The position numbers and the translations under genes are program-made. Below the pieces are notes generated by a model. That model was not told the origin of the DNA. It ran no database searches and saw only the letters and a program-made list of their open reading frames with translations. This document shows, one piece after another, positions 5,301 to 56,824 of a stretch of 64,000 nt of DNA. Source of the DNA: Lachnospiraceae bacterium (lineage in GTDB: Bacteria; Bacillota; Clostridia; Lachnospirales; Lachnospiraceae); assembly GCA_015056815.1 (NCBI GenBank), contig SVFN01000014.1, positions 1 to 64,000 on the forward strand, read 5' to 3'. Position 1 is the stretch's first letter, and every line of letters begins with the position of its first letter.

Positions 5301-8300
5301 AATTCCTGATAATCCTCCGGCTCTATCCATGTCGTACCGATACCCACATCTATCTCTGATGCATCAAGGTCTTTGGGCTGTACCTTTGTAAGAGCTTCCA
5401 CATTTACTCCGAAAAGCTGTGGATATTCCTTTGCCTGTGCTTTGGCTATTCTTAATTTGTCCCTGACATTACCGGACAGATACTCATCCGCTGTCTCCCA
5501 GCCACGATTACGGTCATTCTCACTGTACTCTGCCGGGTTGCAGAATATCACTCCGCCAAGCTCCTCTATCAGCTTCTCTCTTCTAAGTCCCTGTATCACA
5601 TCATCCGAAAGGGATATATCCTCTATACTCTCCCCGGATTTTTCTGCTATCTCCTGCTTCATAGATGTGATATCCGGCGTATAGATAGATAGCATAAACG
5701 GGATATTTACCTTATTAAATTCATTGATTGAGATATTAAGAGCTTCCACTGCTGTCTCTACACTGTCAACCGACTGCTTCGCCTTAATGGTCTGTTTTGT
5801 GAACATCTCTGCTTTTGTCACATTTCCGTCTTCATCAAGGACTTCCAAGGAACAGAGCAGAGGATAATCACTGTCCTCACGAAATGCAAGGGCATTGCCA
5901 CGGCTGTTAATCGAGCCGTACTTTTTTACAAAGCTGTCGTACTTATCGTTTAGTTCTTTCTGCGCTTTTATAAGTTCTTCTTCGCTGCATCCTTCCATCT
6001 GTATGTTGATAAGATGTCTTGTTATCTGTCTTATCTCATGAAGTCCGAGTATTCTCTTCTTTACCGTATCTCCCGCATCCCACAGATACATCCTGCTGTC
6101 CTTACGGTAATAAATGCTGCCATCCACTACGGTAAAGGAAAAGTTCTTCACATCCGGGTCTGCCGGGATATCCTCGGTCAGTTCTTCTTCCGCATCCGAT
6201 ATCAGCTCAAAATCTTTCATCTCGGCATGGATATTATCTATGGCATTACTTACTGCTTCATATACATTGAAGTTCTCATCATCATTTACGCATATCGTAT
6301 AATTCGAAGTATCTCCGAACCTGCCTCTGTCGTACTGCATATGTCCGAGCATCATCTCCGGGTGCTCTGCAAAGTAAGAATTTACAGGTATCCCATCCTC
6401 AGTCATGCCAAGGTGTACCCAGTCCGGTTCCACTGCTATTTTCCTCTCCCTCTTCTGAAAGAAAAGGATATCGCTTGTGACTCTGGTTCCGGCACTACCT
6501 TTAAATACAGATTCCGGAAGTCTGACTGCACCTATCAGTTCTGCCCTCTCGGCAAGGTATTTTCTTACCATCGGGTTCTGCTTATCAAGGGTTCCTTTTG
6601 TGGTTATCACTGCCACGATACCGCCCGGTCTCGTCTGGTCTATCGCTTTTGCGACGAAATAATCATGTATTTTGAAGTTCAGTTTATTGTATTTCGGATC
6701 ATATACCTTATAATCTCCAAAGGGTACATTTCCTATGACCACATCGAAGAAGTTGTCGGGATAGGCTGTCTCTTCAAAGCCTTTTATCTCTATCTTCGCA
6801 CCGGGATACAGAAGCCTTGCTATCCTTCCACTGATACTGTCAAGCTCCACTCCATAAAGACTGCTTTCTGACAATTCCTCCGGCATACATCCGAAGAAGT
6901 TGCCAACACCCATGGACGGTTCAAGGATATTGCTCTTTGTAATGCCAAACTGACTGAGGGAATGTGTTATGGCACTTGCTACCATAGTAGACGTATAGAA
7001 AGCGCCATTGACGGATGCCCTCGCCGCCTTATATTCGCTGTCGGTAAGAAGCTCCTTTAATTCTGCATACTCATTCTTCCACGAATCGTTGCTGTCATCA
7101 AACACCTGAGAAAGACCTCCCCAGCCGACATAATTCGACATAATCCGCTGTTCTTCTGACGTGGCAGCTCTGTCTTCTGCCTCTATCTGCTTTAAGGTTT
7201 TTATAGCTTCTATGTTCCATGAATATCTTGTCTTGGCTCCGCCCTCTTTTGTGTCCCAGATGGTGAGACGAAAGTTTGTGGGAGTGATGTCTGATTCATG
7301 CAAAGTGTTATCGTTATCCGTAAGAGCAATATCAGATGTTATAGCACCTGTATTATTGCTTATAATATCAGTCTCGGAATGGTCTTCCGGTGAGTTCCCG
7401 ATTTCACCACGAATATAGTCGGGTACTCCCATCAACTCTGCTTCGTCCGGTATGGCATACTCGTCAAGTTCTTTGTCGAGAAGTGTATTCTCAGGGTCTT
7501 CCTCTGGCTGAAATTCACTTTCCTCTTCTGTATTATCCGTTATACTCTCAGCAGATTCTTCGTCAGAAATCTCTACATAGTCGGTATCTATGATGGAATT
7601 TTCAGATGGCTCCGGAGTGTAATAATCATTTGTAAGAATAAGTGCGGATATTATGGACTCTATACTGTTCCAACTGACATATCCCTCTTTTTCTCCTTCC
7701 TCATCACGCCACTGAAATCTCATACCCTTTGAAGTCTTAAAGGTGTCATACCCATGCAGTCCGTAACCCTCAAGCGGCCAGCCGGCACCACCAAGACCAA
7801 ACTCACTCTTGATGCGTCTGACCCTTTCGGATTTGATGGTTTCGGTCTTCATAATGTTATAGACACGCTTCTTGCCATCCACAAAGCCTGTTCCACGTTT
7901 TAAAACATATACAATATAATCATGCGGTACACTGTCCTCTATCTTTGGATTGAGAAAAGTATATTTACCCTCTTTTATATCCTGTTTCTCTTTTTCCGTA
8001 AGATAAGAATCCTGAAAAGAAAGAAGAGATAACTGCTCATAGCCGCTATCTCTTCTCTCTCCAAAGGTATCAATGTCCTTTAGTTCTTTATTCAGTTCTT
8101 CATCAATCTCATTTAGTGGTACTTGTTCACCACTTCGGCTATCACTATCTCCTCCGCCTGCATCATGCCCTGCTGTCTGATCTTCCACATCTCCATGGTG
8201 TCCGCCGGATTCTCCGGCTTGTGGCTTTTCAGATAGTTCTCCATCATCATGTCTATCATCCGGTACGCTTCCTCGTTCACCGGAGAAAGTACCTCCGTCA

Positions 8301-33234: not shown

Positions 33235-33774
33235 TTAATCTTCGCTCCAGTCCATTACATGACTGAGTACATTTTCATAATTACCGAGCCTGTCCGCTAT
33301 ATCCTCCGCTGTTGCTGCATTCCTATTATCATCCGGCAAACCGCTACCTTGTACCGAATTACTTTGAGCATCTGTAGCTGCTCCGCCAACCGGCATAAAT
33401 GATGTATTTGATTCTCCAGATTGCATCACAAGTCCACGATTAGCAGCCGCTCCAAATGCCATGCTTCCAAGGAAACGTATCATTTCCTCATAAAGCTCTG
33501 TCTTTACTTTGCCTGCCATCTTTGCCAGTGATTCATCAACATAATCTTTAGAGGCAAATGCAGCTTCTCTTTCCTCCTGCTCCCTTTTTGCAGTGTAGGT
33601 GAGATTACCATTCTTCATGGCATCCATGTAGTAGGAAATGGCAGTAAGGATAAACTGGTTTTTTGACTTATGAACATCTGTATTCAGATCATCAAGCATA
33701 TCCATTATCCGTAAATGCTCCGGATTGTTGTAATTTAACCTTAGTGACAGATGTCTGCACGAATTATTCTCCAT
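33235..33774 (-). CDS. ParR-like centromere-binding protein
   Basis: HLSLRLNYNNPEHLRIMDMLDDLNTDVHKSKNQFILTAISYYMDAM; immediately downstream of parM-like gene. Confidence 0.75.
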   Translation of the reverse strand: MENNSCRHLSLRLNYNNPEHLRIMDMLDDLNTDVHKSKNQFILTAISYYMDAMKNGNLTYTAKREQEEREAAFASKDYVDESLAKMAGKVKTELYEEMIRFLGSMAFGAAANRGLVMQSGESNTSFMPVGGAATDAQSNSVQGSGLPDDNRNAATAEDIADRLGNYENVLSHVMDWSED

Positions 33775-33786
33775 GCCGCCACCCCC

Positions 33787-34704
33787 TTAAGCTATCTTTC
33801 GGTTCTTAAGATACAAGGTTGCAAGTGTCTCATATCCAATCGCATTTGCCCTAACATCTTCGATATATGATATGTTACGCTGCGATATACCCGCATATCT
33901 CTTCATAAGTCCGGCACCACCTCCCACAAATGTGATAGGTGTTGTCTTTACATTGATTCCCTTTTCTGCAATGATTCTGAAAATGGATTTTGTATATCTT
34001 TCAATCTCACTCTTGATTATCTCAATATACTCAGAATCGAGATTGGCATCACCCTTTATCATTACTTCACGTATCATGTACTCGTCAATCTTGGAGTTGG
34101 TCTTTCTGACACATACCTCGTCAATTTTTCTCATGCATGTAATAATTCCGTTCGGGTCGGAACCACTGTTTGATTCATCCGGCGCCATGTCAATAATCTT
34201 CATATAATCAATCGTCCATGAACCGATATCCACAACATATTCCTGCCCCGCCATCTGTGGAAGTCTGTCAACCACTGCACCGTAGCACTGCGGATAGACC
34301 AACACCTTTTCAATCGTGACAAGATACTGTGTTTTTTCATAACGGAATCTCACCATTCTGTTCTTAGACAGATAGTTGATAAAATCTTTCTTTTCCGCTC
34401 CGAATCTCCCGATGGGAAGTCCCACAGCAAGCACGATATGTGCTTCTTTCAAACCACGAAATTTCAGCTCCTTTGCAACGGCTGCAAGAGTAAGCAGATA
34501 ATAGTTATCATTACAGACCTTATTATCCTGAACCTTTAATCTGTCACCGCCGATACGGTAATACTTGCCGTTATACTCCAAAATGTTGTCATACACCATC
34601 GGCTCATTTCCAAGCTCACCCACACCAGATACAAAGCAGGAATTACGTGTCTTAATGTGGCTCCATCCATGGTCAATGCCGATTGCAATAGTCTTAGTGT
34701 CCAT
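33787..34704 (-). CDS. ParM-like actin-type ATPase
   Basis: IAIGIDHGWSHIKTRN; VVDIGSWTIDYMKI; TFVGGGAGLMKRY. Confidence 0.88.
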   Translation of the reverse strand: MDTKTIAIGIDHGWSHIKTRNSCFVSGVGELGNEPMVYDNILEYNGKYYRIGGDRLKVQDNKVCNDNYYLLTLAAVAKELKFRGLKEAHIVLAVGLPIGRFGAEKKDFINYLSKNRMVRFRYEKTQYLVTIEKVLVYPQCYGAVVDRLPQMAGQEYVVDIGSWTIDYMKIIDMAPDESNSGSDPNGIITCMRKIDEVCVRKTNSKIDEYMIREVMIKGDANLDSEYIEIIKSEIERYTKSIFRIIAEKGINVKTTPITFVGGGAGLMKRYAGISQRNISYIEDVRANAIGYETLATLYLKNRKIA

Positions 34705-34789
34705 TTTTCTTATCCTCCTTTTTCTCTACTCCGAAGTGTTTCTTCAGACTTCTTCTCCCGGTACACTTATCACAAATATCCGGACTATG

Positions 34790-35275
34790 TTCAGAATCCT
34801 TGTCTCAGAGTGCGTAAAGCGAACAGATACATAAGTATCAGCAGGGTATTCGCTTACCTCAACAAACTATCTTCGCAGGTCTGATAATATGCTGAGGTAG
34901 GCGAATACACTTCGCATCGCTTCCATGACATCAAAAATCGTATTCTCCCGATATGATCACGACCTTGCAGGTCTCACTTTTTCAGTGCTTTACTCTAAGC
35001 ACCTCACAGATTGCCAGTCCCCCATCGTTATTGCTTTTGCCTCACGATTTCGGTGATTTCATTTCCCTGATTATGTCCGACTTTGCATGTCGGTAGCCCC
35101 GGCTTAGGCTAACGGTCTTTATATGAGCAGCTATAAGAATCTTATAACCGACCTTCATCGCCGTACCCCGGTGCGTCCCATTTAGGGCAGAGAAACTTCT
35201 CGATCATACCTACTATTCGGTTGTGCATCAAACTCAGTAAGTTACCTAACTTTGTTCGACACGCTTATGATAGCA
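34790..35275 (-). ncRNA. Candidate large structured ncRNA or structured parM leader
   Basis: No ORF >=60 aa from 34885 to 35343; many hairpins including GTATTCGCcTACCTCA/TGAGGTAaGCGAATAC; candidate extended -10 TGCTATCAT. Confidence 0.6.
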
Positions 35276-35343
35276 TAGCGGGATTTTATTAAATCTACAT
35301 TTCCGGATACCTTTGCCTGTTTTTGTCGCCTTTGTGGGATACC

Positions 35344-36633
35344 TTATAATCTGATATCACCTGCAACATATTTCTTAAATAATTCTCCTGATATATCTTT
35401 TGAATTTGCTGTCAAATCAATTCCTAATGCTTTAAATATCACATTAAATGCTTCATCTAAAGAATCACTTGTATAGTCATTTCTCTTGATACAAATGCAT
35501 TCTTCCATACATTCATCCGCAGGCTCAAGAATGCGAAACAGCTTTATTCCTTTTGCCCTGCACAGTCTGTTTCTCACAACCTCCCTTCTGTAAGACTGAC
35601 CTTCCATAATTCTTTTTTCTTGTATAATGATTGCTGAATGATACTCCGGAATATACATCTGAAGCTTTATCCCTATCTCTTCCATATCATCTTCAACAAC
35701 CTTTATTTCATTATCAGTCAGTAAATATTTCATTAATAGCCAAGGATAATTTATTTCAAATGTTTCTTTATACTTATTGATGTATTCTGCCTTCATATTA
35801 TTCTGTACTGTTTCGAGTCTCTTACAGTAAGGACAGCCACCACCATTTACTCTCTTATATATTGCCGTGCTCCATTCATATCCACAAGTTTTACAGGTCC
35901 AGATAACACTTACTCTCGACTTAGCATTAACAGATTTTGGCGACACGGTATTCTTGTCTGACCATTCGCTGACCAATTCAGGATTAGTGGAAGCAAGATC
36001 ATTAAATCCCGGCAAAAGAATAACACCGCTGCAATATGGACATTTCGACCCTTTATTTCTGCTTGATACGGGTGCTTTCCACTCATGTCCTTTATCACAT
36101 TTCCACCAAAACTTTTTATTAGTATTAGCCATAACATCTGATGCCTTAATCGGATAATTGCGCTCTGACCATTCCTTTGCAATGTCCGGTCTTGTACTCT
36201 CCAAGTCATTTTCACCTTTTTTTATTTTATGAGAAGTACAGTAGGGACATCCGGAACCCTTTACCCGATTCTTAATTGATGCCTTCCACTCATGACCACA
36301 ATTCCCATTCCACCAGACTTTTTTCTGAGAACCGGCAGTATAAGAGCTGATATCTGCTTCAACATTTTTATCCGACCACTCCGCTATAAGGTCAGGGCAT
36401 ATGGTAGCAAGGTCATTAAATCCAACAAGCACCCTTTTCCCCGTACAATATGGACAGCCCTCCCCTTTGGTACGTGCTTTTACAGCGGTTTTCCACTCAT
36501 GACCACATTTTCCTTTCCACCATACTACCCTATTAGAACCATAGCTTACATCTGCCGGACTTATGCTATCATTCTTATCTGACCATTCATCCGCCAGCTC
36601 AGGATACTTTACTATCAATGCATTTTCTTTCAT
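35344..36633 (-). CDS. Multi-zinc-ribbon (DUF4379-like) protein with Vsr-like C-terminus
   Basis: Four GHEW...CPYC-type units (4th CGYEW) with NDLAST.P.L..EWSDKN spacers; C-term RREVVRNRLCRAKGIKLFRILE. Confidence 0.8.
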   Translation of the reverse strand: MKENALIVKYPELADEWSDKNDSISPADVSYGSNRVVWWKGKCGHEWKTAVKARTKGEGCPYCTGKRVLVGFNDLATICPDLIAEWSDKNVEADISSYTAGSQKKVWWNGNCGHEWKASIKNRVKGSGCPYCTSHKIKKGENDLESTRPDIAKEWSERNYPIKASDVMANTNKKFWWKCDKGHEWKAPVSSRNKGSKCPYCSGVILLPGFNDLASTNPELVSEWSDKNTVSPKSVNAKSRVSVIWTCKTCGYEWSTAIYKRVNGGGCPYCKRLETVQNNMKAEYINKYKETFEINYPWLLMKYLLTDNEIKVVEDDMEEIGIKLQMYIPEYHSAIIIQEKRIMEGQSYRREVVRNRLCRAKGIKLFRILEPADECMEECICIKRNDYTSDSLDEAFNVIFKALGIDLTANSKDISGELFKKYVAGDIRL

Positions 36634-36691: not shown

Positions 36692-37552
36692 CTAATGTTT
36701 CTTATTCCATGCTTCTAATATCTGAAACAATGCAAGCTCAATATCGCTGTCTGACATGTTTTTCGGGAAATAACGCCTTATTTTCTCCATCTTTATACCA
36801 TGTTTTCTCAGCTTGTTATCTGATAAAACTTTGCTTAATGTCTCTTCTTTTAATTGTCCGTTCTGGCTTAAGCAGTGTATCTCTTTTGCCTTCTCTTTCG
36901 TAATTCTGTATTTTGCACTGCGTATTTTTAAGAAAACAAGTTCTTGTTCTGCCTTAGTCAGATAAGAAAGAGTTACTCCCTGCACAATACCTAATCTGCC
37001 ACTATCGACCATATCAAGCAAATCTTTTGACAGGTTAGTAAGTGCTATATATCTTTGAATTGTCTTCCATCCATCACCTTCTGTTTCTGCCATTTTCTTT
37101 AATGTCATTCCACCTTTTTTCGTTCCTGAATGCTTTAATACATCATATTTCATTCTATATGCTTTTGCCTTTTCGCTCGGAAGAACTGACTCCCTTTGTA
37201 TATTGCTATCTACCATATATGAGATGGCATCTTCATCACTCAGTTCCATTATCCTCGCCGGAATAGTCTTAAGCCCTGCAAGTTCAGAAGCCCTTGTTCT
37301 TCTATGCCCGGATACTATCTCAAAACCGCCCCCTTTTCTTTTTCTGACCAATATCGGATTCAGGACACCATTTTGTTTTATGCTAACAGCCAGAGCTTCC
37401 ATTTCCGTATTATCTAAAACTCTAAAAGGGTGATTTCTAAACTCATGCAGCTCCCTGATATCAAGTTCTTCGATATTACCTTTTTCTTTAGCTCCTAAAA
37501 TCTCATCCAGTCCCATAATAGTCACTCGATTACCCTTTTTTATTTCTGTCAT
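36692..37552 (-). CDS. ParB/KorB-like DNA-binding protein
   Basis: LDIRELHEFRNHPFRVLDNTEMEALAVSIKQNGVLNPILVRKR..GGFEIVSGHRRTRASELAG; likely start MTEIKKG at 37552. Confidence 0.9.
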   Translation of the reverse strand: MTEIKKGNRVTIMGLDEILGAKEKGNIEELDIRELHEFRNHPFRVLDNTEMEALAVSIKQNGVLNPILVRKRKGGGFEIVSGHRRTRASELAGLKTIPARIMELSDEDAISYMVDSNIQRESVLPSEKAKAYRMKYDVLKHSGTKKGGMTLKKMAETEGDGWKTIQRYIALTNLSKDLLDMVDSGRLGIVQGVTLSYLTKAEQELVFLKIRSAKYRITKEKAKEIHCLSQNGQLKEETLSKVLSDNKLRKHGIKMEKIRRYFPKNMSDSDIELALFQILEAWNKKH

Positions 37553-37848
37553 ACTTTCCCTTCTTTCTTCACAAATGGACACTGTGTCCATTCTTCTTTT
37601 ATTAGTAATTTTGCCCTCTCCTCTGCACTCTTACTTTTATCTGACAGAATAATAAAAAACACATCATTCATATGTTCATCCTCTTCGTTATAGTACTTTG
37701 AATGTCTTTGCAATACGTCATAAACCTTATCTAAATCCTTATATGTTCCTTCTGAATGTCCAAAGCCGGTTAAGAGTTGAAATGCTTTATCCATGTTCTC
37801 CAGTTCATCAACTACAACAATCAAATCCATATAATCTCTTTTATCCAT
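37549..37848 (-). CDS. Small ICE protein of unknown function
   Basis: MDKRDYMDLIVVVDELENMDKAFQLLTGFGHSEGTYKDLDKVYD; SD gaaaggag before ATG 37848. Confidence 0.6.
   Translation of the reverse strand: MDKRDYMDLIVVVDELENMDKAFQLLTGFGHSEGTYKDLDKVYDVLQRHSKYYNEEDEHMNDVFFIILSDKSKSAEERAKLLIKEEWTQCPFVKKEGKV
37575..37591. promoter_or_regulatory. ParB-type palindrome B
   Basis: ATGGACAC-T-GTGTCCAT, 5' of parB-like start. Confidence 0.88.
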
Positions 37849-56715: not shown

Positions 56716-56824
56716 CTCTTATTGTTCGAAAATTCGCTCAGGTTGGCACCTTCCATCGGACAGATCCAGATGGGGTTGCCGTGGCTTCGCAGGTCCTATG
56801 TACCTCCACCACTCTGAATAAGAG
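56716..56824 (-). promoter_or_regulatory. SAM-I (S-box) riboswitch upstream of metK
   Basis: CTCTTATTCAGAGTGGTGGAGG...GGACCTGCGAAGCCACGGCAACC...GGAAGGTGCCAACCTGAGCG...AATAAGAG. Confidence 0.95.

Follow-up and report, generated by a model that had tools for sequence, protein, structure and literature searches.

In parMRC partition loci such as those of plasmid R1 and C. perfringens pCW3, parM is followed by parR. The parC centromere commonly takes the form of repeats arrayed upstream of parM (PMC9426499). The stretch analyzed here, 64,000 nt of a Lachnospiraceae contig (SVFN01000014.1, positions 1 to 64,000; hereafter the window), shares this gene order, with a parM-like gene and then a gene for a ParR-like protein. 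Unlike R1 and pCW3, the window has, where the parC repeats would sit, a region of about 420 nt that is very probably a structured RNA, and no iterons were found. Large elaborate RNAs of unknown function are already known from mobile elements, GOLLD and ROOL among them, but the window RNA is smaller and belongs to a conjugative element of gut bacteria, not a phage; no tRNA gene was found in the window. The other close comparison is Clostridiales-3 (RF02942), a structured RNA of Lachnospiraceae, which was reportedly described in a 2017 paper on 224 candidate structured RNAs; a full-text literature search found no paper naming it.

The sequence-only reading of this region had proposed an ornate large RNA or a parM leader, with parC as a third option, from an open reading frame (ORF)-free stretch at 34885-35343 and a set of minus-strand hairpins. 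The stretch indeed contains no ORF of 60 or more amino acids, and a coding origin was rejected both for this reason and because indels among homologues are often not multiples of three and would break the frame. The minus strand folds at -183.6 kcal/mol compared with a shuffled mean of -149.6 (z -4.74, 0 of 100 shuffles), and the plus strand gives a z of -3.5. The hairpins named earlier, a 29-nt inverted repeat (34843-34871/34883-34911) among them, are present, and their helices are supported by covariation in homologues, with some refinement: the conserved part is the minus strand from 35260 to 34841, TGAGGTAAGCGAATAC is the 3' arm of the last hairpin of the element, and GATAC-ttat-GTATC sits 3' of the element as part of an alternative hairpin. 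Against the 4227 families of Rfam 15 the region gave no match, only chance microRNA models below threshold, and ROOL, GOLLD, raiA, OLE and HEARO did not score; because there is no Rfam match, the window RNA and its homologues form a new structured-RNA family.

The homologue search started from parM loci related to the ALP_N protein of the window, and such loci turned up in 89 of the 299 Lachnospiraceae genomes covered. The two closest (L033 and L034; parM identity 73% and 68%) come from one sheep-rumen Lachnospiraceae genome, and in both the sequence just before parM can be aligned with the window element. Scanning 85,488 genomes with a pattern brought in two more Lachnospiraceae contigs, from 'Lapin' (rabbit) samples: L111, where parM is again directly downstream of the RNA, and L128, a partial copy. 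Model R1 confirms exactly these four of the 64 pattern matches in genome contigs, the other 60 being chance, and matches in viral contigs were likewise judged to be chance. R1 also finds a divergent homologue, L167 in genome G165 (28.8 bits; E 1.8e-6, a rough value, the models having had only a short calibration), which has the AATAGTAG block at the right place although R1 did not contain that block. The family is rare, occurring in 3 of 397 genomes sampled from the Lachnospiraceae, with five full-length copies and one partial. In blastn searches the element matched no plasmid or phage, and the L167 and L034 RNAs matched no plasmid. A 22-nt identical match in G026 is a chance match within the coding sequence of a purine-biosynthesis-type protein, and candidates in G123 (R1, 20 bits; inside a topoisomerase-like ORF) and in G065 and G526 (R2, 27 bits; main helices missing) were set aside. 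At about 1.1 kb past this divergent RNA, the L167 locus contains a second long ORF-poor stretch (5950-6560), possibly structured, that has no Rfam match.

Does the pairing itself persist when the sequence changes? In a MAFFT alignment of four sequences built without structure, the 93 pairs drawn from the window sequence have 89.3% of cells paired, and both sides have changed in 31 pairs compared with 15.5 in shuffles (0 of 500 reach this number), whereas with slid partners as a control pairing falls to 34-46%. The compensatory changes that the sequence-only reading had made the check on its proposal are thus present above controls. In a separate sequence alignment that includes L167, double-sided changes affect 17 of 44 pairs (0 of 500 shuffles). 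In a structural hand alignment, both sides have changed in 48 of 95 pairs and 12 of 360 cells are unpaired; on the parM strand of this alignment there are 34 G-U cells and only 2 A-C cells, which indicates that the parM strand is the folded one. Two points weigh on the other side: the hand alignment leans towards structure, and the full-length sequences number only five. We estimate the probability that the region is a structured RNA at about 0.9.

From 5' to 3', the order is the extended -10 element (TGNTANNAT), P1, AATAGTAGG, P2 enclosing P3 to P10, GAGAGAACACGAT, P12 and CCTGC (Table 1). The extended -10, suspected earlier at the upstream end of the region, is at 35275-35267 in the window, and L033, L034 and L111 have TGNTANNAT in the equivalent position, 6-8 nt ahead of GTCGAAC, so that the element precedes the 5' hairpin in all four loci; no good -35 was found for it. 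The P1 pairs have one-sided changes only. P2 has changed on both sides in six of nine hand-aligned pairs, P3, P4, P5 and P6 each have several double-sided changes, and P7, P9 (GTGCTT/AAGCAC) and P10 (GACC/GGTC) covary. Conserved motifs of the P3 subdomain are GATGANGGTCG, TGCTCA and TAGCC. RNAalifold also predicts a helix P0, between GTAGG and CCTGC (34845-34841), that would close the main domain; P0 is unproven because both arms are invariant and lack covariation support. In P12, each of the outer eight pairs has changed on both sides in the hand alignment.

In all four sequences, the 3' arm of P12 could instead pair with a segment 18-34 nt further on. The resulting hairpin, P13, has a predicted energy of -9.7 to -15.0 kcal/mol across the four sequences and is mutually exclusive with P12. 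All three strands change together, as seen in GCGAA/TTCGC of the window and AGTAGA/TCTACT of L034. Shuffle frequencies for P13 at single loci are 0.01, 0.3, 0.0065 and 0.05; a sequence-only alignment intended as a test of P13 was discarded because it misplaced the short arms. The support for P13 is post hoc and its statistics are modest, which counts against a switch, and a P12/P13 exchange acting as a regulatory switch in a parMR leader is suggestive only.

Table 1. Features of the RNA element and partition genes (window coordinates)
Feature	Position	Strand	Basis or remark
Structured RNA element, ~420 nt	34841..35260	-	Homologues, covariation, no Rfam match
Extended -10 element TGCTATCAT	35267..35275	-	6 nt before RNA 5' end
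P1, 5' hairpin GTCGAAC/GTTTGAT	35227..35260	-	7 pairs, no unpaired cell across four sequences
AATAGTAGG block, near-invariant	35209..35217	-	AATAGTAG also in L167
P2-closed domain	34952..35208	-	35208-35202 TATGATC with 34958-34952 GATCATA
P3 subdomain (TTTCTCTG/CAGGGAAA) with P4, P5, P5b-d, P6	35062..35195	-	Double-sided changes in P3, P4, P5, P6
CACCGAA...GTGAGNC...GGGG block with P7, then P8, P9, P10	34961..35051	-	Covariation of P7, P9 and P10
P12, long terminal hairpin	34846..34908	-	Hand alignment
P13, alternative hairpin	34817..34855	-	P12 3' arm (AAGCGAA) with downstream TTCGCTT
parM-like actin homologue	33787..34704	-	Pfam ALP_N; downstream of RNA
ParR-like protein	33235..33774	-	Homologues come after related parM genes

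More distant parM genes of the clade (46-54% identity) have Clostridiales-3 at the equivalent place. With membership set at a covariance-model score above 103.4 bits, there are 17 matches in the 299 genomes, and 13 of these precede a same-strand parM by 0.03-1.2 kb, a position that is outside the Rfam definition; a parM gene on a viral contig also has Clostridiales-3 upstream. Like the window RNA, Clostridiales-3 has a 5' UAGUAG block and ends near CCUAC/CCUGC. The 5' hairpin with GTCGAAC and the subdomain with GATGANGGTCG/TGCTCA set the window RNA apart from Clostridiales-3, and the conserved motifs and helices of the two differ. They are either two RNA families with one role at the parM site or relatives beyond detection. 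The genome of the window itself has a sub-threshold Clostridiales-3-like match of 90.5 bits (L154, G000:C56:15029-15240) that overlaps a long ORF, has no parM nearby and does not align in its last third. Another copy of Clostridiales-3, L171, lies just beyond greA-lysS and an excisionase-like gene; the window element is also beside greA-lysS, and the two perhaps share an integration site.

What else might the region be? A parC centromere whose ParR sites happen to be hairpin-rich would fit a ParR-like gene after parM, but neither the element nor the DNA right beside it contains an array of direct repeats: 34700-35400 has only a single 9-nt two-copy repeat, 32 nt apart. Double compensatory changes in at least 31 pairs are not expected of a double-stranded DNA protein site and argue against one. 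The parC option of the sequence-only reading was therefore rejected for the element, and we consider it highly improbable. A single-stranded DNA structure (an origin of transfer, a single-strand origin or another origin) that folds during conjugal transfer would also yield compensatory changes, and the window is a conjugative element with a relaxase and type IV secretion system genes. However, the excess of G-U over A-C on one strand, the conserved -10 element ahead of the 5' hairpin and the distance of about 11 kb to the relaxase gene oppose it, and folded as DNA the element hardly beats shuffles (z -1.5, compared with -4.7 as RNA), which makes this origin improbable as well. That the window RNA is a very divergent Clostridiales-3 is a claim about ancestry, compatible with either a leader or a noncoding RNA. 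It would account for the common position and strand upstream of parM and for the similar 5' block and 3' end, but neither direction gives a significant score: searches with RF02942 came up empty at E values up to 5 in the window region and up to 3 in L033/L034, and R1 and R2 do not match Clostridiales-3 loci. Such common descent is unlikely, if less so than either DNA reading.

If the RNA is transcribed on the minus strand, with the extended -10 element as its own promoter, the predicted transcript would run on into parM and the ParR-like gene; no T-run terminator was recognized before parM on that strand. The RNA would then form the 5' leader of the conjugative element's partition operon, or a noncoding RNA processed from that leader. 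The main domain (P2-P11) could be a sensing or binding part and the choice of P12 or P13 at the 3' end could set parMR expression, restricting synthesis of the segregation proteins to the right state, such as an excised or replicating element, or free ParR or ParM. We give even odds to a leader that regulates parMR and has the choice between P12 and P13 as its output. Its main rival is a trans-acting noncoding RNA or ribonucleoprotein of the mobile element whose gene just happens to adjoin parM and whose task is something other than parMR regulation, because L167, in a mobile element with a serine-recombinase-like gene downstream, has no parM nearby. Four of the 17 strong Clostridiales-3 matches also lack a nearby parM (two are on or near short contig ends), and for these two reasons a strict parM-leader role is not proven; the transcript itself, moreover, is a prediction. 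A promoter-like element of its own and a fold much larger than usual leaders would suit a trans-acting RNA too, as Clostridiales-3, GOLLD and ROOL may likewise be. Yet of the five loci with a known 3' flank, four have parM directly downstream in the same orientation, with no terminator and with the P13 hairpin between RNA and parM, and a trans-acting role, though a serious contender, is the less favored of the two. A bolder and rather speculative view is that an unknown class of large RNA is integral to actin-based segregation: in this parM clade, the position normally taken by the DNA centromere would be occupied by structured RNAs from two or more families that look unrelated, and the RNA would switch or scaffold ParM/ParR function. 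It is uncommon to find a large, strongly covarying structured RNA that Rfam lacks, and here there are also a partner system, a promoter-like element, a candidate switch and an operon that can be tested. The orphan Clostridiales-3 gains a genomic context upstream of the same parM clade, and the function of both RNAs can be tested together.

The parM product scores 46.3 bits with Pfam ALP_N (cut-off 26.3), which identifies it as an actin-like ParM, and weakly matches ALP12 in the PDB. The gene after parM encodes a conserved motif and predicted helices that fit a ribbon-helix-helix protein, which it probably is; it has no Pfam match, and a Foldseek fold search of its model found nothing. Besides the relaxase and type IV secretion system genes, the integrative conjugative element encodes a coupling protein, a TraG-like ATPase, a SpaA/LPXTG protein, a sortase and SpoVG, and it adjoins lysS- and greA-type genes. 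Directly upstream of the RNA promoter is a gene for a DUF4379 protein with four zinc-finger-like repeats (35344-36633, minus strand), and a ParB-family gene (36692-37591) comes after it.

Related parM loci have further noncoding features. In L034 (1768-1859), the RNA promoter is preceded by three direct repeats of GTATRCGACTATGTAT, which could form a parC-like array or serve a divergent gene as its operator. Another conserved noncoding element lies 0.35-1.15 kb upstream of parM in L035, L036, L050, L053-L058, L060-L062 and partly L033; its conservation begins at GTTATAATA and goes on with RGGACAARTTAGAAGAAACCCAGTAAAATCAAGGG..CTAATTTAGTCCT and, about 150 nt later, AGGACTAAATTAGC..GCTGATTTAGTCCT with a T run. 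It is absent from the window, has no Rfam match and is possibly a further small RNA or attenuator in the parM clade. Elsewhere in the window is an ordinary S-adenosylmethionine (SAM) riboswitch (RF00162, 74.7 bits; 56716-56824, minus strand).
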